From a virus, in the IMG/VR virus record IMGVR_UViG_3300020442_001006, positions 1 to 36,282 of that record: DNA of 36,282 nucleotides. One strand, given 5' to 3'. The position numbers and the translations under genes were made by a program. Below, in pieces: positions 11,130-34,001 of this stretch. The notes below the pieces were generated by a model that ran no database searches, was not told the origin of the DNA, and saw nothing but the letters and a program-made list of their open reading frames with translations. Every line of letters begins with the position of its first letter. The first letter of the stretch is position 1.

Positions 11130-11157
11130 AAGGGGAACCGAAAGGTTCCCCTTTTTT
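11130..11157 (+). terminator. Strong intrinsic terminator after gp23
   Basis: A perfect 10-bp stem (AAGGGGAACC 11130-11139 with GGTTCCCCTT 11144-11153) is capped by the stable tetraloop GAAA and runs into a T tract at 11152-11157. This is the clearest terminator in the window and ends the capsid transcription unit. Confidence 0.93.
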
Positions 11158-11167
11158 ATTAAATAGG

Positions 11168-11173
11168 TATACT
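11168..11173 (+). promoter_or_regulatory. Candidate -10 element downstream of the gp23 terminator
   Basis: TATACT sits 14 bases after the terminator stem and 23 bases before the ATG at 11197. No good -35 is present: the -35 position falls inside the terminator arm. The same arrangement occurs at 23397, 25664 and 33965. Confidence 0.35.
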
Positions 11174-11552: not shown

Positions 11553-12599
11553 ATGGTTGCCAATTGGTATAAGGAACAACCAACAAATAGAAATTTTCTT
11601 ACGCCTGTAGGATTCAAGTTAAGTCTTGAATTATTTCCAGGTGTAGATTTCTTTTGCCAAACTGCCAATATTCCTGAACTCTCCATGCCATTTACAACTG
11701 TACCTACACCGTACAGAAATGTTCCTATAGCAGCAAGTGGTGGAGTTGACTTTGGTGACTTACAAGTAAGATTTATTGTAGACGAAGACTTAGTAAACTA
11801 TAAAGCAATACATGATTGGATAAGAAAGTTTGGATTATCTGAAGGAAGAGCAGATGAAAAAGATCAATACTCTACTGCCATCCTTGAAGTTTTAACATCA
11901 CACAACAACACAAACCATATTGTTGAGTTTGTCAGAATTTTTCCAGTATCTATTACTGGTGTTCCTTTTGATGCTACAACTACGGACATTGATTATTTCA
12001 CCGCAGATGTAACATTTAAGTATGAAACATATGAGATCAGAACTCTAGATAAACAACCAGCTATTTCAACCCAATCACTAAACGTAACTCTAACTAGTGA
12101 TGCAACTGGATCTCTAAATCCTGGTGAACCATTTACATTAACATATACTTCAACTGGAGCATCATCACTATCCATAAACAATGGTGTTGGTGATGTTGAA
12201 TTGCGTGCTGGTGCTGTTCCGTTAAATGCAACTGGTGCTTTAGATTATGCAACTGTAGTTGATGAGTTTACAAACACAGTAACTTATACCATCACTGCAA
12301 CTGCTTCTGATGGTTCTACTGATACAGCATCAGTGACATTATCATTGAAACAACCAATCACCAGTGCAAATAGAATTTGCATTGCTGTATGTGATGAAAA
12401 CTTAGGTTCTCAAAGTTTTGCAGGAATGGAATCTAAATGGGTTGCGTTTAGAACTAACTGGCCAGATAGACACGTATATCTATTACAACCCAACCTAAGT
12501 AATAGTACTAGTGCTCCAATCCGTGCAGACAGTATTAACACCCTGCATGTCCCACCATCCTTCTTGGAAGCAGCAGATCCAGACAAATTTGATCTCTAA
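11553..12599 (+). CDS. Tail-tube-fold virion protein with Ig-like and degenerate vWA-like C-terminus
   Basis: Residues 1-165 follow the tube-protein pattern seen in gp19 of this window: FKLSLELFPGVDFFCQTANI, a VPTPYRNVPIAASGGVDF strand pair, LQVRFIVDEDLVNYKAIHDW and a late DVTFKYETYEI. This suggests a gp19/gp54-type tube or baseplate-tube initiator role. Residues about 178-268 form an Ig/PKD-like beta domain (GEPFTLTYTSTGASSLSIN, TYTITATASDGSTDTASVTL). The last 80 residues open with NRICIAVCDENLGSQSF. That resembles the strand and metal-site loop of a vWA domain but lacks the D-x-S-x-S residues. Exact virion location is unknown. Confidence 0.7.
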   Translation: MVANWYKEQPTNRNFLTPVGFKLSLELFPGVDFFCQTANIPELSMPFTTVPTPYRNVPIAASGGVDFGDLQVRFIVDEDLVNYKAIHDWIRKFGLSEGRADEKDQYSTAILEVLTSHNNTNHIVEFVRIFPVSITGVPFDATTTDIDYFTADVTFKYETYEIRTLDKQPAISTQSLNVTLTSDATGSLNPGEPFTLTYTSTGASSLSINNGVGDVELRAGAVPLNATGALDYATVVDEFTNTVTYTITATASDGSTDTASVTLSLKQPITSANRICIAVCDENLGSQSFAGMESKWVAFRTNWPDRHVYLLQPNLSNSTSAPIRADSINTLHVPPSFLEAADPDKFDL

Positions 12600-12602
12600 A
12601 TA
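12596..12602 (+). promoter_or_regulatory. Candidate late promoter overlapping a stop codon
   Basis: CTAAATA contains the stop TAA (12597-12599) of the preceding gene and lies 11 bases before the ATG at 12614. The short distance makes it uncertain. Confidence 0.35.
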
Positions 12603-12613
12603 TTTAAAAACCA

Positions 12614-14092
12614 ATGACAGTATTAAATCCTATTGATGTAGGTACAGGATATCAACCGTTCCTATCACATTATGCTCCCGTTTCTGGTGCAGCATATCTT
12701 ACTGACTGGTCATTTGGTGGTGGTGGAAATTATATTAGACCATGGACAAGTTTCTCACAACGTCTTGTAGAAGCAACTTGGTCTCTTGGTCCTTTTGGAA
12801 TGCGACTGGGTGGAAATATCTCAGGCAGAATTATGATAAGCACAGAGTATCCAAGTTTAGGAGAACTGGCATATTGTGATCAACCATGGTATGGATTTGA
12901 TGATGGTCCTAGTGGATATCCATCCAAAGCAGAATGGTTTGGAAGTGTTGTTAAAACTGTAATTCAAGCAAGAGATTTGAATACAGAGGGTCATCCAATG
13001 ATTCATGTTGAAGTTGCTGTACTAGATCCAACAGATCCTGCGGAAAGGTATACTCCTCCAAGTTGGTGGGATACTTTTTCTTATACTTTCAGAACAATGG
13101 GTGGAATTATTCCAAATAATATGGGGTGGATGACTGGCAACCCATGGCCACAACCTCCCAATGATGATGATACTACTGGAAATACCACTCCTCCCGTATC
13201 AGATATGGCAGCAGCTGCTGCTAACTGGGCAGGAGATATGATTAACAATTTTGGTGCAGGTCTTTCATCTGCATATCAAGCTACTGTAGGAACAGCTTTA
13301 AATAGTGTTGAAGATTTTGTCCAGAATGTATTGAATGGAATTGAAGCTGGACAAGTGGGAGTAAATACACACATTGATCATAACAGAACTCCACCAGATA
13401 CAAGTGGAGGTAGTCCAGATTTTGCTCAAATACCAGGAGAACTAAACACAAATCCAAGAGATTTAAATCTGCGTAATGGTCTCCAACAAGATTACGCTGT
13501 AAATTTAGGAGATGGATCTGGTCTAACTCCAGCGTTTGGTGATGTGACAACACCAAATGGTATAGATTCTGGTAGGTTAAATGTAGCATTAGTCAATCAA
13601 GGATTAGATACAGCTAGAGATTGGTATGGTATTGCAAATAATGGAAAAGGAACAACAGCATTTTATATTCATGGAAGAACAATTTTCAATGAGGGAAATT
13701 CTGGAGGCAATCAATATGCTGCACCAAATCCAACAATTGATAGTTATGGAAATTTAAGAGTTTATGATACTTATGAATTCCAAAATAGTGGTTTAGATTG
13801 GATTGGAAATTGGGTAAGCTCTAATATTAATCACGATGCTGGTCAAGAATTAAATGCTTGGTTTGATACATCACCAGGATTTCACACCGCTCCATCACTC
13901 AGTGATGCTGGAGCAACAAGGGTAACAAATGAAGGTGGCACTCCAGGTAATAGCAATATCAGTTCTTTGTCAAACACATATATTGGAGTTGTAGTAACAC
14001 CACATAATTTAAATCAATCAAATCCAACTCTTTATAACAACCTAAAAAACAACGGTTATTATGACCACGTAGATCCATCATTACTACCATGA
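12614..14092 (+). CDS. Putative virion structural protein, no recognised family
   Basis: This 492-residue protein lies between two structural-looking genes and ends by ATGA overlap with the next. The N-terminal 170 residues are aromatic and Gly-rich (TDWSFGGGGNYIRPWTSFSQ, WSLGPFGMRLGG), which fits a beta-rich domain. A Pro/Asp/Thr linker (PPNDDDTTGNTTPPVS) precedes an Ala-rich amphipathic helix at about 196-245 (MAAAAANWAGDMINNFGAG). The C-terminal half is Asn/Gly-rich (GTTAFYIHGRTIFNEGNSGG), as in phage adhesin or fibre tips. I do not recognise a family; a neck, baseplate or fibre role is inferred from context only. Confidence 0.65.
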   Translation: MTVLNPIDVGTGYQPFLSHYAPVSGAAYLTDWSFGGGGNYIRPWTSFSQRLVEATWSLGPFGMRLGGNISGRIMISTEYPSLGELAYCDQPWYGFDDGPSGYPSKAEWFGSVVKTVIQARDLNTEGHPMIHVEVAVLDPTDPAERYTPPSWWDTFSYTFRTMGGIIPNNMGWMTGNPWPQPPNDDDTTGNTTPPVSDMAAAAANWAGDMINNFGAGLSSAYQATVGTALNSVEDFVQNVLNGIEAGQVGVNTHIDHNRTPPDTSGGSPDFAQIPGELNTNPRDLNLRNGLQQDYAVNLGDGSGLTPAFGDVTTPNGIDSGRLNVALVNQGLDTARDWYGIANNGKGTTAFYIHGRTIFNEGNSGGNQYAAPNPTIDSYGNLRVYDTYEFQNSGLDWIGNWVSSNINHDAGQELNAWFDTSPGFHTAPSLSDAGATRVTNEGGTPGNSNISSLSNTYIGVVVTPHNLNQSNPTLYNNLKNNGYYDHVDPSLLP

Positions 14093-16191
14093 CTTCAGTA
14101 ACTCCTACCGCTCAAAATAGAGAAACATTCAAAAATCTTCTAAGAGAAAATAAAGATTTATTTTCTTCTCCACTTCTACATTCAAGATTTGGAGAGATTT
14201 CAGGTATGCTGAATTCTTATCATAATAGTTTGACAGCAGCAGATGAACTTAATGTAGTTCTTTTTGATTACAATGAAACTGTAGACATTTCTAATGCTAC
14301 CGATTTAATCTATATACCTGCTCAGGAAAATGATGTTGTTAATTTACAGAATGGATCTACAACAAAAGAAGTTAAGGTTTTAAGTAATGGAATTGAAGTT
14401 AACTCAACTAGTTATGGATTAGGATCTGCGTTTGTACTAGGTGATAGAAAGTTTACTGTTTATGGTTTAGGAGGAGCTTTACTAAACGGAGAAAATTCTC
14501 CATCATATACATTAACTCCAAGTACAACAGCAGTTAATGAAGGAGATACAATCACATTTACATTAACAACAACCAATGTGCCAGATGGTACTATGGTTAA
14601 TTATTCTGCGTTTTTAGATGAAGTAGATGCAGCTGACTTTACTCCCAATGGTGCAGAGACAGGAAGTTTTACTGTGTACAATAACACAGCAACTTTCAAT
14701 CTAACAATCAGTGAAGATTATTCACCTCAGGGACATGAAGGAACAGAAACCTTTATTGTTAATATTGAAGACCCAAGCGACAATACAGTACTTGCATCAT
14801 CACCATCCATAACAATTACAGATAGTTCTTTTGCTACCTTCAGTGTTTCTGGTGCAGTTGCATCCGCTCCAATAACTAGTGGTATCATTACTAAATTATT
14901 ACATCAAGCCAGTGGACAGGGATATTTTGTTGGAGATCAAGTAACACTAGAAAAGAGTCACCTCACACCTGGTACTCCTGGTTCTGGTGCATTGATTGAA
15001 ATTACTGAAGTAGATAATGGTGCTACTGGTGGTATTGGTGCAGTTACTAAGTTTAAAATTATTAACGGAGGTCAAGATTTTGTAGTAGGTGATACTAACA
15101 ATTCTAATGATTATTGGAAAGCAGTTGGTCCTGCAACACACAGTGGTGAAAACTCAAAAACCTTTAGAGTTTGGGTAACCGAAGTTGCATCAGCAATTTC
15201 TGAGAATGATACTGTCACATATACAGTTGATACTACAAACGTTCCAGATGGTCAGATATTATATTGGAAAATTGTATCTGGTACTGGAGTTAATGTTTCT
15301 GCTAGTTCTGGCAACTTTACCATTAATAACAACCAAGGAACATTTGATCTTACTTGCCCACAAGATTTAACTGATTCTACAACAACAGCATCTCAAGAAG
15401 GTGATAACAGTGGAACTGAAGCTGTATATGGTAGTAATCTTATCACGATAGAATTATATCCTGATATGGCAAATCAGATAGTTGTGGCATCTATTTCAAC
15501 TACAGTATTCAATACACCATTTACGATTACATTAACACCAACTGCTACAAGCGTCAATGAATCTTCTGCTACGCAAGATTCTACTGTAGTGTTAAATGTT
15601 CAAACTACAGGTATTCCAGATGGTCAAGTTTTATCCGCAAGAATTGCTGGCGGTCCTGAATTAACATTTGGTGGAACAGGAGCTGTATGGACAGACACAT
15701 CTGGACCTCCTGGAATTGATGGTGGAGATTTCCCAAGTCAAAATGGATCTTCTACAATCAATAGTGACTCAGGTGTTCTAACTGTTCCCATCAATAGAGA
15801 TGGTAGAACAGAAGGAAATGAAACATTTAGAATTGAAATTGTAAATTCAGAAGGAACTGTTGTCGCTACATCTCCAGATATTACAATCAATGATACATCT
15901 TACCTTGGTATGAATAAGGACAACAAAACGTTTGGTCCAATTCATGTTATTCGTGATGGTGGTGATGTAAATAACACCTCAGACTGGTATACTTTATGTG
16001 GTCTTGACTCTGTTCCAGACGGTGCTAAAATTGCTATATTTGTTGATGGTTCTGGTAGTATGACTATGAGTACTGTTCAAGCTTCTTATGATAAACTAGC
16101 AGATAAACTTAATGAAAGGGGTATCTCTTTTATTACAGTAACAAACTCCAATGAAGATTGGATCACACCCTTTGATATTGAATTAAACTAA
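14089..16191 (+). CDS. Calx-beta-repeat virion protein with C-terminal vWA MIDAS motif
   Basis: The 700-residue protein contains at least three Calx-beta-like repeats, marked by VNEGDTITFTLTTTNVPDG (about 155), ISENDTVTYTVDTTNVPDG (about 370) and the SVNESSATQDSTVVLN repeat (about 490). Each ends with an E-G-x-E-x-F-x-x-x-I strand. Between repeats one and two is a GGQDFVVGD segment like the gp18 insert. The last 60 residues contain IAIFVDGSGSMTMSTVQ, a vWA metal-ion-dependent adhesion motif (D-x-S-x-S), but the domain stops after about 55 residues. Such proteins in cyanophages are probably virion surface or fibre parts. It overlaps the upstream gene by ATGA. Confidence 0.75.
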   Translation: MTSVTPTAQNRETFKNLLRENKDLFSSPLLHSRFGEISGMLNSYHNSLTAADELNVVLFDYNETVDISNATDLIYIPAQENDVVNLQNGSTTKEVKVLSNGIEVNSTSYGLGSAFVLGDRKFTVYGLGGALLNGENSPSYTLTPSTTAVNEGDTITFTLTTTNVPDGTMVNYSAFLDEVDAADFTPNGAETGSFTVYNNTATFNLTISEDYSPQGHEGTETFIVNIEDPSDNTVLASSPSITITDSSFATFSVSGAVASAPITSGIITKLLHQASGQGYFVGDQVTLEKSHLTPGTPGSGALIEITEVDNGATGGIGAVTKFKIINGGQDFVVGDTNNSNDYWKAVGPATHSGENSKTFRVWVTEVASAISENDTVTYTVDTTNVPDGQILYWKIVSGTGVNVSASSGNFTINNNQGTFDLTCPQDLTDSTTTASQEGDNSGTEAVYGSNLITIELYPDMANQIVVASISTTVFNTPFTITLTPTATSVNESSATQDSTVVLNVQTTGIPDGQVLSARIAGGPELTFGGTGAVWTDTSGPPGIDGGDFPSQNGSSTINSDSGVLTVPINRDGRTEGNETFRIEIVNSEGTVVATSPDITINDTSYLGMNKDNKTFGPIHVIRDGGDVNNTSDWYTLCGLDSVPDGAKIAIFVDGSGSMTMSTVQASYDKLADKLNERGISFITVTNSNEDWITPFDIELN

Positions 16192-21667: not shown

Positions 21668-23409
21668 TTGTATTTGAAAAAGTTCGTTGGAAAAACTTTC
21701 TTTCTACAGGCAACACCTTCTCAGAAATTAATCTGAACGGATCCAGAACTAATTTAATTGTTGGTCATAATGGATCTGGTAAGTCAACCATCCTAGATGC
21801 GTTGACTTTTTCGCTGTTCGGAAAACCATTTAGAAAGATCAGTAAGGGTATGCTGGTGAATAGTGTCAATGAAAAGGACACTATGGTAGAGATTGAATTT
21901 TCTATTGGAAAGAATCAATACAAAATTGCGAGAGGTATCAAACCAAATAAGTTTGAGATCTATTGTAATGGTAAAATGTGGAATGAAGATGCAAAGGCAG
22001 TAGATCAACAAAAGAATCTAGAACAAAACGTTCTTAAGATGAACTATAAGTCTTTTACTCAAATCGTTGTTCTAGGATCTAGTACCTTTGTTCCTTTTAT
22101 GCGTTTGCCAGGTCAGCAACGCAGAGAAATTATTGAAGACATCTTAGACATTCAAGTATTCTCTGTTATGAATACTAGACTGAAAGATAAGATTAGAGAG
22201 AACAGAGATGTAATCAAAGAATTAGATTACAATCTCCATCTTCTGGATGAGAAGATTGAGTTGCAGAAAAAATATATGCTTGAGATTCAGAAAAAGAATG
22301 AAGCAGAAATTGATAAGAAGAAAGAAAGGATTTCAGTATATCTGCAAGAAGAACTAGAATCTAATGAAAAGATTGTGCAACTATCAGAAGAAATTGCAAC
22401 TCTTACTACCCAGATGGAAGAGTGTTCAAACAGTACTGGTAAGTTAAAACAGTTGAATACTTTCTTGGTGAAGCTTGAGGGTAAACTAAACAAGTGTAAG
22501 AAGGAACATGAGTTTTATTCCAAGAATGAAATTTGTCCTACGTGCAATCAAGATCTAGATAAGAACTTTGTCTTTGCTATGACTGGCAATTTGGATACAA
22601 AGATCAAAGATCTAAACAGCGGTTATGATGAACTAAAGAAAGCAATTACTTCTGAAGAAGAAAGGAACAATAGGTTTGTTGAGTTGTCGCAGCAAGTCAA
22701 CACAGTCAATACAAGTATTGCTGGTGTGAATTATCAACTAGTAACTATTCGTAATCTTGTTTCTTCTCTTGATAGTGAAATCAAAGAACTTGAGAGTTCT
22801 AATCCAGACAAGAAAAAAGAATATAATAAACTAGAAGAACTCCTAACAGAAAAAAATACTGTCAAAAATAATTATGCAGACAGTAAAAAAGATTGCGATG
22901 TATTACAAGCTGCCACTCAACTGTTAAAAGACAGTGGTATTAAAACTAGAATCATCAAGACATATCTTCCTACGATGAATAAACTAATTAACGGTTTCTT
23001 ACAAAGTATGGATTTTTATGTCAACTTTACTCTTGATGAGAACTTTGAAGAGACTATTAAGTCTAGATACCGTGATGTATTTTCATATGAATCTTTCAGT
23101 GAAGGAGAAAAAGCTCGTATTGACATCGCTCTTCTGCTTACTTGGCGTTCTATCGCTAAACTTAAGAATTCTGTGGATACTAACCTCTTGATTCTAGATG
23201 AAATTTTTGATGGATCGCTTGACCAATCAGGCACATCTGATCTAGGATGGATCCTTCGCAACTTTGACGAGAATACAAACGTGTTTGTCATCTCACATAA
23301 ATCTACACTAGATGACAAGTTTGATCGTACTATCTCGGTCAGCAAGGATAAAAATTATTCGGTACTAGAGGAGACAGTTCACGAAGTGACACACGCACTG
23401 ATCGGATGA
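21664..23409 (+). CDS. gp46: Recombination nuclease ATPase subunit, SbcC/Rad50 type
   Basis: 581 residues (T4 gp46 has 560). The N-terminal ABC half has Walker A VGHNGSGKST near residue 34-43. A long charged coiled coil runs from about 175 to 440, interrupted by the zinc hook CPTC at 291-294. The C-terminal half carries the signature motif FSEGEKARIDIAL and Walker B LLILDEIFDGSLD followed by ISHK. It pairs with gp47 for end resection in recombination-dependent replication. All key motifs appear intact. The stop codon lies inside a terminator-like hairpin. Confidence 0.96.
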   Translation: MIVFEKVRWKNFLSTGNTFSEINLNGSRTNLIVGHNGSGKSTILDALTFSLFGKPFRKISKGMLVNSVNEKDTMVEIEFSIGKNQYKIARGIKPNKFEIYCNGKMWNEDAKAVDQQKNLEQNVLKMNYKSFTQIVVLGSSTFVPFMRLPGQQRREIIEDILDIQVFSVMNTRLKDKIRENRDVIKELDYNLHLLDEKIELQKKYMLEIQKKNEAEIDKKKERISVYLQEELESNEKIVQLSEEIATLTTQMEECSNSTGKLKQLNTFLVKLEGKLNKCKKEHEFYSKNEICPTCNQDLDKNFVFAMTGNLDTKIKDLNSGYDELKKAITSEEERNNRFVELSQQVNTVNTSIAGVNYQLVTIRNLVSSLDSEIKELESSNPDKKKEYNKLEELLTEKNTVKNNYADSKKDCDVLQAATQLLKDSGIKTRIIKTYLPTMNKLINGFLQSMDFYVNFTLDENFEETIKSRYRDVFSYESFSEGEKARIDIALLLTWRSIAKLKNSVDTNLLILDEIFDGSLDQSGTSDLGWILRNFDENTNVFVISHKSTLDDKFDRTISVSKDKNYSVLEETVHEVTHALIG

Positions 23410-23428
23410 TCAGTTTCTTTGTTATGCT
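23397..23428 (+). terminator. Hairpin at the gp46 stop with a possible -10 element behind it
   Basis: ACTGATC (23397-23403) pairs perfectly with GATCAGT (23408-23414) around the tetraloop GGAT, followed by a T-rich run TTTCTTTGTT (reading on to 23423). TATGCT at 23423-23428 could be a -10 for the next gene. Its -35 position falls inside the hairpin. Both functions are weakly supported. Confidence 0.45.
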
Positions 23429-23452: not shown

Positions 23453-25642
23453 ATGCTCAACCAACAAATCAAAGGCAATCTCGCTAAACTACTAGCAACT
23501 GAGAATCTAGTTGTGGAACACCGTGGTGTCCCTACTGCTTCTTTTGATGTTGAGCGTCGTGTTCTGACTCTTCCTAAGTGGGACAAAGCAAGCAATACTG
23601 TATACGATATGCTTGTTGGTCATGAGGTAGGTCATGCTCTCTTCACTCCTAACGAAGACTGGTCTTCTGATGAACTTCCTGTCAAAGCAAAAAGTTTTGT
23701 GAATGTTGTTGAAGACGTTCGCATTGAAAAACTTATGAAGCGTAAGTATCCTGGTCTTCGCAAGTCCTTTGCTGGTGGATATGCAGAACTCAACGCACTT
23801 GATTTCTTTGAGATTGAAGATAAAGATCTTACTAAGTTTAGTTTGATTGATCGTATCAACCTTCACTTCAAGGTTGGTGCTAATGCACTCATTCCTTTTT
23901 CTAATAACGAGAAAGTATATGTTCAACGTGCAGAACAGACTGAAACATTTGCTGATGTTCTTGACCTTGCAAAAGAACTTTACAATCTAGATGCTGAAGT
24001 AGAGCAGTCTATTCAAGAACAGATTCCTGCTCAGCAAGATGAGGAGGGTGAAGGTGAAGATGAGCAAGAGACTCAAACAGAATCTTCTTCTGACAATCAA
24101 GATGATCAGGAGTATCAATCTACTGGTTCTAATTCTATCTCTCAACCAAACAATCAAGGTGGTGAGGAAGAAGAAGATGATCTTGATTGTGGTACAGAAG
24201 GTGGTGAGCACTCTTCTGGTAGCACTCAAGATTCTTTTGACGAAAAAGCATCTAGTCTTTCTTCTCAGAACTACGGTAATGACACCACATATGTAGAAAT
24301 TCCTGAGACAGTTAATGTAGACAAAGTTGTTGTTGACTGGAAGAAAGTTCATTCTTGGATTGATCAAAACAATCAAGAGGAGAGAATTGATCCTTATGAT
24401 TCTCTAGATTCTTATGCTACTGTTGATGCTGCATACAAAGAGTTTCGTGACTCTAATAAGAAAGAAGTTAACTATCTTGTTAAAGAGTTTGAGTGCAAAA
24501 AATCAGCAGCAGCATACGCACGTTCTTCTACTGCAAGAACTGGAGTTCTTGATACAACCAAACTCCATACTTACAAGTACAATGAAGATCTATTCAAGCG
24601 TGTAAGTGTTGTTCCTGATGGTAAGAATCATGGCATGATTTTTATCATTGACTGGTCTGGTTCTATGCAGTATGAACTTCTTGCAACTGTAAAGCAACTT
24701 CTTAACTTGAGTGCTTTCTGTAGGAAAGTTCAAATTCCTTTTGAGGTTTATGCATTTACTAATGAGTGGCAGATTGCAGAAAGAGCACAAGATCCTCAAC
24801 TTTCTGATTCATATGATCGTAACTACTGGTATGGAAACCAAAGTTATAGAAACAAGGAAAACCTAGAAGCAAACAAGATTCAAATTCCTGAAGGTGAATT
24901 TCATCTCATTAACTTTGTATCTTCTCGTTCTAATGCAAAAGAGTTTGAAAAGCAGTGCCGCTATCTTTTCAGGGAAGCATATTGCTACACTCATCGTACT
25001 ACTTACTATCCTACTCCTGGCTTGGGTCTATCTGGAACTCCTTTGAATGAAGCAGTTATCATGTTGAATTACATTCTTCCTAAGTTCAAGAGGGAGAATG
25101 ATCTTCAGAAAGTCAATGTTTGTATTTTGACTGATGGTGAAGCAAATGGTAGTGCATATGGTCGCACTATTTACAACCATAAGACTGGTGAAACTCACGT
25201 AAGTCTTGGTAGGATTCATTCAAATTGTTCATTGCGTGATCGTAAGACTGGTATTGTTTATGCTAACTTTGATGATTACTATACTGGAAACACCAACACC
25301 TTCATTGACCAAGTTCGTGATCGTTTTCCTGAAGTAAACATCATTGGTTTCCGTATCCTTCCTGCTAAAAAACTAAGTGAATTTGTATCTCGTAGTGGAT
25401 CTTATGAACATTACAGTGAGATTCAAAAGCAATGGAAGAAAACAAAGTCTGCTATTATTCCATTCCCTAAGGGTTACAGTGCTCTCTATGCTATCTCTTC
25501 TAAAGATCTTGAGGAAGAGAATGAGTTTGATGTTGCAACAGATGCAACTAAAGGACAGATCACAAAAGCATTCAAAAAAATGCTTAAGTCTAAGTCAACT
25601 AACAAAGTGCTTCTAAATTCTTTTGTAGACCACGTAGCATGA
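23453..25642 (+). CDS. Metallopeptidase-like/vWA protein, CobT-type partner of CobS
   Basis: 729 residues. The N-terminal domain has a zincin-type motif HEVGHALFTP (H57, E58, H61), followed by a helix rich in acidic residues (NVVEDVRIEKLM) that could supply the third ligand. Residues about 185-280 are a very acidic, Gln/Ser-rich linker (EEGEGEDEQETQTE). The C-terminal vWA domain has an intact MIDAS motif IFIIDWSGSMQYE (D400, S402, S404) and a later ILTDGEANG (D561). Cyanophage homologues are usually called peptidase. AAGGA ribosome binding site at 23445-23449. It is followed by the CobS-type ATPase, the standard MoxR/vWA pairing. Confidence 0.88.
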   Translation: MLNQQIKGNLAKLLATENLVVEHRGVPTASFDVERRVLTLPKWDKASNTVYDMLVGHEVGHALFTPNEDWSSDELPVKAKSFVNVVEDVRIEKLMKRKYPGLRKSFAGGYAELNALDFFEIEDKDLTKFSLIDRINLHFKVGANALIPFSNNEKVYVQRAEQTETFADVLDLAKELYNLDAEVEQSIQEQIPAQQDEEGEGEDEQETQTESSSDNQDDQEYQSTGSNSISQPNNQGGEEEEDDLDCGTEGGEHSSGSTQDSFDEKASSLSSQNYGNDTTYVEIPETVNVDKVVVDWKKVHSWIDQNNQEERIDPYDSLDSYATVDAAYKEFRDSNKKEVNYLVKEFECKKSAAAYARSSTARTGVLDTTKLHTYKYNEDLFKRVSVVPDGKNHGMIFIIDWSGSMQYELLATVKQLLNLSAFCRKVQIPFEVYAFTNEWQIAERAQDPQLSDSYDRNYWYGNQSYRNKENLEANKIQIPEGEFHLINFVSSRSNAKEFEKQCRYLFREAYCYTHRTTYYPTPGLGLSGTPLNEAVIMLNYILPKFKRENDLQKVNVCILTDGEANGSAYGRTIYNHKTGETHVSLGRIHSNCSLRDRKTGIVYANFDDYYTGNTNTFIDQVRDRFPEVNIIGFRILPAKKLSEFVSRSGSYEHYSEIQKQWKKTKSAIIPFPKGYSALYAISSKDLEEENEFDVATDATKGQITKAFKKMLKSKSTNKVLLNSFVDHVA

Positions 25643-25663
25643 CCAGTTGACGAAGTGTCCACT

Positions 25664-25697
25664 AGGGGGTGTCAGCACCCCCTCCATCCATTATACT
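25664..25697 (+). promoter_or_regulatory. Hairpin plus -10 element before cobS
   Basis: AGGGGGTG (25664-25671) pairs perfectly with CACCCCCT (25676-25683) around TCAG. TATACT at 25692-25697 is a good -10, and the matching -35 position (25669-25674, GTGTCA) lies within the hairpin. The structure lies 21 bases after the stop of the vWA gene and could both limit read-through and overlap the cobS promoter. Confidence 0.6.
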
Positions 25698-25721
25698 AAT
25701 TACATCAACAAAAGAGATCCA

Positions 25722-26822
25722 ATGCCTTTCCAACAAAAATTTTCTAACGAAGAACTAGTCACTTTCCTTTCTGCCAAGGGCACTGAGATTAACAGTGATC
25801 AGATTAAGGAAGCGGCAGCACACTTCGGTGTCAAGACACAAAGCGTTACCAAACGTCTTGGCAAACACCCTCAGTTTACTAAAGGAAGTCGTGGTGTGTG
25901 GAACTTGACGGTTGCAGAAACACTTGAGCAATCTTATCAGGCACCTGCTGCTGTTCCTGCTGTAGAAGATCTTGTTCCACAGAAAGATCCTAACTATGTT
26001 CCTTTCGGTAACTTTGCTGATGTGAAGAAGATCGTTCAGTCTGGAATGTTTTATCCTACTTTTATTACTGGACTTTCTGGTAATGGTAAGACTTTCAGTG
26101 TGGAGCAAGCATGTGCTCAACTTGGTCGTGAATTGATTCGTGTAAACATTACGATTGAAACTGATGAGGATGATCTCATTGGTGGTTTCCGTCTAGTCAA
26201 TGGCGAAACTGTATGGCACAATGGTCCTGTTGTGGAAGCACTAGAGCGTGGTGCTGTATTGCTTCTTGATGAGGTTGACCTTGCCTCTAACAAGATCCTT
26301 TGCTTGCAATCTGTTCTTGAAGGCAAAGGTGTTTTCTTGAAAAAGATTGGTAAGTATGTTCGTCGTGCTCCTGGCTTTAATGTATTTGCTACTGCAAACA
26401 CCAAGGGTAAGGGTTCTGATGACGGTCGTTTCATCGGCACCAACGTTCTCAACGAAGCATTCCTTGAGCGTTTTGCATTGACCTTTGAGCAGGAATATCC
26501 TTCTCCTAAGATTGAGCAAAAGATCCTTGAAAAAGCAGCAAGTTCTCTTGGTGTTCTTGATGAGAAGTTCTGTGAGAATCTTTCCAATTGGTCTGATATC
26601 ATCCGCAAGACTTTCCGTGACGGTGGTATTGATGAAATCATCTCTACTCGTCGTCTTGTACACATCATTCGTGCATTTGCTATCTGGCAGGATCGTATGA
26701 AAGCAATCAAGGTCTGTGTAAATAGGTTTGATGAAGAGACTAAAACTTCATTCATTGAACTCTATGACAAAATTGATGCAGATGTAGTAACTGAGGAGGT
26801 TGCAGATGATCAGCAAGGGTGA
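25722..26822 (+). CDS. cobS: CobS/MoxR-type AAA+ ATPase
   Basis: The 366-residue ATPase has Walker A GLSGNGKT at 117-124, Walker B LLLDEVD at 180-186, and sensor 1 NVFATANTKGKGSDDGRF near 222-240. ETDEDDLIGGFRL matches the MoxR/CobS insert. In bacteria CobS with CobT drives cobalt insertion into cobyrinate; cyanophage cobS genes are commonly annotated on this basis. Here no CobN is seen. The N-terminal 60 residues look like a small DNA-binding-type helical domain (EAAAHFGVKTQSVTKRLG) rather than a chelatase part. ATG 25722 is chosen because it follows the promoter; the frame is open further upstream. Confidence 0.9.
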   Translation: MPFQQKFSNEELVTFLSAKGTEINSDQIKEAAAHFGVKTQSVTKRLGKHPQFTKGSRGVWNLTVAETLEQSYQAPAAVPAVEDLVPQKDPNYVPFGNFADVKKIVQSGMFYPTFITGLSGNGKTFSVEQACAQLGRELIRVNITIETDEDDLIGGFRLVNGETVWHNGPVVEALERGAVLLLDEVDLASNKILCLQSVLEGKGVFLKKIGKYVRRAPGFNVFATANTKGKGSDDGRFIGTNVLNEAFLERFALTFEQEYPSPKIEQKILEKAASSLGVLDEKFCENLSNWSDIIRKTFRDGGIDEIISTRRLVHIIRAFAIWQDRMKAIKVCVNRFDEETKTSFIELYDKIDADVVTEEVADDQQG

Positions 26823-33955: not shown

Positions 33956-33964
33956 CGTAACACA

Positions 33965-34001
33965 GGGGGGACTTGACATCCCCCCTTCCTCTTGATATAA
34001 T
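33965..34001 (+). promoter_or_regulatory. Consensus sigma70 promoter with its -35 in a hairpin loop
   Basis: GGGGGGA (33965-33971) pairs with TCCCCCC (33979-33985). The seven-base loop CTTGACA contains the consensus -35 TTGACA (33973-33978). TATAAT (33996-34001) follows after exactly 17 bases, so both hexamers are perfect. The stem may act as terminator for hsp20 in RNA while the DNA serves as promoter for the gene at 34022 and DNA polymerase. Confidence 0.88.

Follow-up and report, generated by a model that had tools for sequence, protein, structure and literature searches.

In many virome studies cobS is counted among the auxiliary metabolic genes for vitamin B12 and serves as a marker for cyanophage communities. 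The gene has a fixed companion, which encodes a larger protein with a zinc-peptidase motif and a vWA domain, and the pair is carried by nearly all large marine cyanophages, being near-universal in the T4-like ones. The question is what such a pair does, and two published readings conflict. Sullivan et al. 2010 listed cobS as cyanophage core, and the function of the phage gene has been stated to be unknown (PMC9983427). Liu et al. 2021 applied the name cobST to genes of cyanophages and other tailed viruses, considered the partner's 'peptidase' label mistaken and proposed that CobST hijacks host CobN (PMC8651126). Iyer et al. 2021, in contrast, described pairs of MoxR and a metallopeptidase–vWA protein in jumbo phages of group 2.2, for which they proposed a role in virion assembly (PMC7824862). 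If the cyanophage pair is a peptidase-armed remodelling machine, the B12 inferences drawn from it do not hold, and marine phages of great abundance have a core function that has gone unnoticed.

We analysed one such pair in a T4-like cyanophage. The window, which is the whole virus record (36,282 bp), is classed as a linear fragment. Its genes run from terminase, tail sheath, portal, scaffold and major head through a uvsW-like helicase, late sigma, gp47 and gp46 to the pair, and then to gp45 and gp44 (Table 1). In cyanophages generally, the pair is flanked by gp47–gp46 and gp45–gp44, that is, by the replication/recombination block, away from the virion genes. Each gene of the pair has its own -10-like site, the TATACT of the second gene lying 30 nt upstream of ATG 25722. 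Neither gene is mentioned in the main text of the infection transcriptome papers examined.

Table 1. Features of the two-gene unit, in window coordinates
Feature	Position	Strand	Basis
Hairpin and -10-like TATGCT	Hairpin 23397-23414; TATGCT at 23423; element 23397..23428	+	TATGCT 30 nt before the ATG of the vWA gene
729-aa zincin–linker–vWA protein	23453..25642	+	phrog_459 'peptidase', 889 bits
Predicted N-terminal minimal zincin domain, residues 1-190	23453..24022	+	AlphaFold2 model, pLDDT mostly 82-94
HEVGH zinc motif, residues 57-61	23621..23635	+	HExxH in 129/129 and 42/42 relatives
Glu87, presumed third zinc ligand, within NVVEDVRIE	23711..23713	+	Invariant (72-sequence alignment); predicted helix 77-98
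Acidic low-complexity linker, residues 184-278 (disordered core 194-252)	24002..24286	+	Composition; pLDDT <50
MIDAS DWSGS of the vWA domain, residues 400-404	24650..24664; T529 25037-25039; D561 25133-25135	+	At least 98% conserved
Hairpin and -10-like TATACT	Hairpin 25664-25683; TATACT at 25692; element 25664..25697	+	TATACT 30 nt before the ATG of the ATPase gene
366-aa MoxR-class AAA+ ATPase	25722..26822	+	phrog_249, annotated CobS ('porphyrin biosynthesis'), 440 bits
Predicted winged-helix-like N-terminal domain, residues 8-62	25743..25907	+	AlphaFold2: H9-17, H25-35, H39-48, E52-54, E60-62
Walker A GLSGNGKT	26070..26093	+	Walker A in 108/108 relatives
Walker B LLLDE	26259..26273	+	Pattern matched in 104/108 relatives

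The smaller protein is a MoxR-class AAA+ ATPase. Its AAA_5 domain scores 66.7 bits against a cut-off of 22 and, as a preliminary description of this DNA had stated, all ATPase motifs are present: besides Walker A and Walker B, we found a sensor-1-like TANT, LERF and RR, and the AAA+ motifs are conserved in 104–108 of 108 relatives. The AlphaFold2 model (pLDDT 76) matches the folds of NorQ (E 6e-14) and CbbQ2. The N-terminus is predicted, mostly at pLDDT 81–89, to form three helices and a two-strand wing, so the earlier wording 'HTH-like' for this segment was fair; the winged-helix-like domain is missing from the Ochrobactrum phage homologue. From sequence comparison, the start is most likely ATG 25722 and not TTG 25647, because the ATPases of relatives begin at the former; the TTG would add 25 unsupported residues.

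The larger protein gave no Pfam family at E<=1 over its 729 residues, and the vWA profile found no match among PDB sequences. Its AlphaFold2 model, built with 72 relatives, has a pLDDT of 80 and a pTM of 0.75. The predicted N-terminal domain consists of a helix (8–16), three strands (20–24, 30–32 and 37–41), a helix carrying HEVGH (48–64) and a helix carrying Glu87 (77–98). This layout of residues 1–190, with HExxH on one helix and the Glu on the next, after a small predicted beta sheet, we take to be the minimal gluzincin fold. The model thus gives zincin topology to the domain in which the preliminary description had noticed the HEVGH motif, and we regard it as a predicted gluzincin-type metallopeptidase with a conserved and apparently intact zinc site. 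The best 50 PDB fold matches are dominated by vWA domains and include no peptidase structure. The C-terminal half is a vWA domain, whose fold matches include the vWA domain of NorD (9qhd_G, E 6.8e-4) and, more weakly, the MIDAS domain of MDN1 (8ql1_C). The MIDAS, which had been called intact, is indeed complete (D400-W-S402-G-S404, T529 and D561). Between the two domains lies the acidic linker of 95 residues described earlier (184–278; 29% D+E, 1% K+R), although the portion predicted to be disordered is narrower, about 194–252.

Conservation extends to the residues expected of a working zinc site. All 129 full-length relatives have HExxH with a Glu 24–39 residues downstream, together with DxSxS, and at least 98% of them keep T529 and D561; HExxH and the Glu also occur in a further 42 of 42 relatives, so that the zinc motif is present in 171/171 readable sequences. 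The general base, Glu58, is as invariant in cyanophages as both His. In comparison with one 97% identical relative, dN/dS was about 0.17 for the zincin part (dN 0.0068, dS 0.0409) and 0.08 for the vWA half, versus about 0.6 for linker residues 191–256 (dN 0.077, dS 0.127). The zincin domain is under purifying selection while the linker drifts.

The two genes, which the preliminary description had seen as a pair in this DNA, are near-obligate partners. The ATPase gene lies beside the vWA gene in 117 of the 120 loci with enough sequence (median gap 76 bp) and, counted from the ATPase side, the vWA gene is upstream in 54/55 loci. The lists of cyanophage records for each gene also agree (365 Synechococcus, 61 'Cyanophage' and 24 Prochlorococcus in both), this being a match of counts and not a record-by-record pairing. 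The two-gene unit is found as well in Rhizobium, Pseudomonas, Klebsiella, Salmonella SSU5-type, Escherichia, Stenotrophomonas, Roseobacter and Vibrio ICP2-type phages; Gordonia and Tsukamurella phages have more diverged versions. HEVGH, HEVAH or HEAGH with the downstream Glu is kept in the Rhizobium, Klebsiella, Salmonella, Escherichia and Roseobacter phage pairs, those of E. coli phage-plasmids among them. HExxH has been lost in Pseudomonas nickie and Stenotrophomonas ANB28, which still carry the pair; catalysis is, therefore, not indispensable everywhere. Pairs outside cyanophages adjoin dnaE, DNA ligase or helicase/polymerase genes.

The data favour the peptidase reading over the CobST reading, and we think it probable that the pair is a two-subunit, ATP-driven remodelling machine rather than a cobalt chelatase. 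In NorQ/NorD, CbbQ/CbbO and Midasin (Rea1/MDN1) a ring remodels a client and a vWA domain binds it. For the phage pair we infer a complex, ATP-driven unfolding and proteolysis, as well as a timing and a target. The MoxR/CobS-type AAA+ ring would be the motor, the vWA domain would dock on the ring or on the client via its MIDAS metal site, and the flexible acidic linker would give the N-terminal minimal zinc metallopeptidase access to the client. A target protein would most likely be loosened or extracted by the ring and then clipped by the zincin; ATP-driven loosening with limited proteolysis would be the simplest reading for a flexibly tethered metallopeptidase that seems intact. The position in the replication block or, elsewhere, beside the replication genes named above would favour a client of the replication or takeover phase over virion assembly, and the client would probably be a host or phage protein belonging to the replication/transcription phase, not a structural one. 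The preliminary description had arrived at a similar machine, and the conserved zincin site and the NorQ/CbbQ2 and NorD fold matches are in line with it. Midasin is alike in its related AAA modules and in the MIDAS domain that our vWA domain matches, but it is a single giant eukaryotic chain, and we know of no peptidase in it. A conflict-system ternary (VMAP) was set aside, as no third component was seen.

The opposite view is that the pair is a true CobST, which binds host CobN during infection and increases cobalamin for class II ribonucleotide reductase, so that the 'peptidase' label would be wrong (PMC8651126). The architecture is similar, CobS/CobT likewise being a MoxR ATPase and a vWA protein with an acidic linker. 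Among characterised single-ring ATPases the nearest by sequence is CobS (83.6 bits versus 60.7 for NorQ). With the CobS equivalog model TIGR01650 our ATPase scores 75 bits, far below the curated cut-off of 558.55, while in CobT-bearing Pseudomonadota 38 of 39 genomes score 504–723 bits and 33 pass. Distant phage homologues of the partner score above the cut-offs of CobT profiles, but the vWA protein of the window matches neither PF06213 nor PF11775. HExxH, fully kept with its Glu in cyanophages, is absent from 13/13 cellular CobT, and a chelatase needs none. The lack of CobN in the window, to which the preliminary description had pointed, is true of the 36,282-bp record but is a weak argument, because the record is a 36-kb fragment; stronger is that, in 50,697 phage records, no cyanophage gave a CobN/ChlH-like match, the same query having found 159 plasmids. 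These results agree with the earlier statement that the pair is not a cobalt chelatase, but the CobN argument leaves the hijack of host CobN standing, because the cyanobacterial host supplies CobN-class proteins: PF02514, a Pfam family that also includes ChlH, is found in 59/61 genomes of the Prochlorococcus family. These hosts have no CobS or CobT, a gap that the phage pair would fill. In E. coli, however, the zinc-motif unit is found on plasmids in 244/5426 genomes and never on the chromosome, and to our knowledge E. coli makes no corrin ring and is without CobN, which speaks against a general role in CobN hijack. We therefore consider a true CobST unlikely, and the usual B12 label of the cyanophage pair doubtful.

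It is also conceivable, but quite unlikely in our view, that the pair is a chaperone for metallocofactor insertion or an activase, like NorQ/NorD or CbbQ/CbbO, in which a zincin-derived domain binds metal or client without cutting. These systems provide the best fold matches for the cyanophage ATPase and are among the best for the vWA domain, HExxH has been lost in some pairs, and the N-terminal domain of CobT appears to be a degenerate version. The NorQ/NorD and CbbQ/CbbO matches name no zincin, and the cyanophage ATPase has its extra winged-helix-like N-terminus. Against this reading speaks the invariant Glu58, which would be superfluous for holding metal alone. For group 2.2 jumbo phages, Iyer et al. 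2021 proposed a virion-assembly chaperone with an added role in processing structural proteins; for the cyanophage pair this seems to us still more improbable. The proposal concerns a similar architecture, a MoxR AAA+ beside a vWA protein that carries a metallopeptidase domain at its N-terminus, and a MoxR–vWA pair is reported as needed for tail assembly of an archaeal virus (PMC7824862). Cyanophages belong to group 2.1 in that study, and the likeness is one of architecture as described. Gene position, an indirect argument, speaks against a virion role, since the genes lie among replication genes both in cyanophages and elsewhere, and so do the separate -10-like sites of the two genes.

How the zincin relates to CobT, of which an N-terminal fragment has a solved structure (PDB 21vu), bears on the origin of cobaltochelatase. 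We found phage proteins from Escherichia, Salmonella, Klebsiella and Roseobacter phages that match PF06213 above cut-off and also carry the zinc motif. Over 166 columns, a Rhizobium/phage-plasmid profile aligns with the cyanophage zincin at a probability of 97%; its alignment with the CobT N-terminus spans 91 columns and scores 31.2, where 60 column shuffles reached at most 18.2. When the cyanophage zincin is aligned directly with the CobT N-terminus by hhalign, the match is weak, with a score of 26.8 over 38 columns and a shuffle maximum of 21.6. Because the intermediate phage proteins bridge the two, the N-terminal domain of CobT is, by these profile comparisons, probably a degenerate zincin. 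More tentatively, the phage pairs could represent a separate class of AAA+ protease with the peptidase on the vWA adaptor, from which CobS/CobT derived or with which they share an ancestor, the CobT N-terminus being a dead zincin. Even cellular CobST may have a function unrelated to cobalt, as matches to CobS and CobT, but none to CobN, were found in the Caulobacter control genome.

The idea of such a pair is already published (PMC7824862), as is the opposite CobST reading (PMC8651126). New, as far as the literature consulted shows, are the conservation of the zinc site across cyanophage relatives, the failure of the CobS and CobT tests, the lack of CobS and CobT in picocyanobacteria and the link to a dead zincin in CobT.

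We also considered where the phage genes come from. A single transfer of cobS from the host has been assumed (PMC9983427). We reject a host origin: CobS over cut-off and CobT were each found in 0/61 picocyanobacteria, and thus, contrary to that assumption, the phages did not acquire these genes from their host. For the whole vWA protein, a search of 299 Pseudomonadota and 101 picocyanobacterial genomes found cellular relatives in none but the two seed genomes, and there the matching contigs resemble phage contigs. Similarly, the one weak picocyanobacterial match to CobS sits on a phage-like contig, with a vWA gene adjoining it.

Among the listed starts of the window, only those of the zincin-linker-vWA gene and of the MoxR-class ATPase gene (annotated as CobS) have a TATRCT motif within 60 nt upstream, in each case next to a hairpin. 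In relatives the sequence of the stem varies while its pairing is maintained, and the position of the TATRCT box is tight. The stem was found in 34 of the 57 spacers separating the vWA and ATPase genes in related loci, versus 4% in shuffled sequence. Further units, each a hairpin with TATACT/TATAAT, lie at 11130-11173, 3' of the major head gene, and at 33964-34001, 3' of the Hsp20 gene.

Hairpin-box units of the pair and the first of three large ORFs
Feature	Position	Strand	Remark
Hairpin + TATRCT box	23397-23428	+	box exactly 30 nt 5' of the vWA gene ATG
Hairpin + TATRCT box	25664-25697	+	box exactly 30 nt 5' of the ATPase gene ATG
348-aa ORF	11553-12599		first of three large ORFs

In E. coli, 244 of 5426 genomes also have the pair, on SSU5-like phage-plasmids (for example, plasmid L186), where it adjoins dnaE and is annotated as a 'CobT-related protein'. 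In very different phages, namely ICP2 (L053) and Tsukamurella and Gordonia phages (L183 and L184), the vWA partner carries an N-terminal HECYH or HEIGH, with no clear matching Glu; the ICP2 protein may use Asp in its place.

Enterobacteria possess an unrelated enzyme with the same gene name, cobS. Reviews assign phage cobS to the last step of cobalamin synthesis, or name it 'cobalamin synthetase', labels that confuse the phage gene with this namesake. A CobN/ChlH-like protein was found in only two of 50,697 phage records (MT837301.1 and OQ572414.1), possibly through contamination or misassignment of these records. As for cells, the control genome of Caulobacter vibrioides has CobT and CobS matches and no CobN match, as do 7 of 39 CobT-bearing Pseudomonadota genomes, some of the seven perhaps through genome incompleteness. 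This pattern hints that cellular CobST has a function that does not depend on CobN.

Elsewhere in the window, three large ORFs occupy 11553-16191, with the major head gene on one side and the helicase region on the other. Of these, the 492-aa ORF (12614-14092) had no match among PHROG families, and the only PHROG match of the 700-aa ORF was a short one, to a virion structural protein family.
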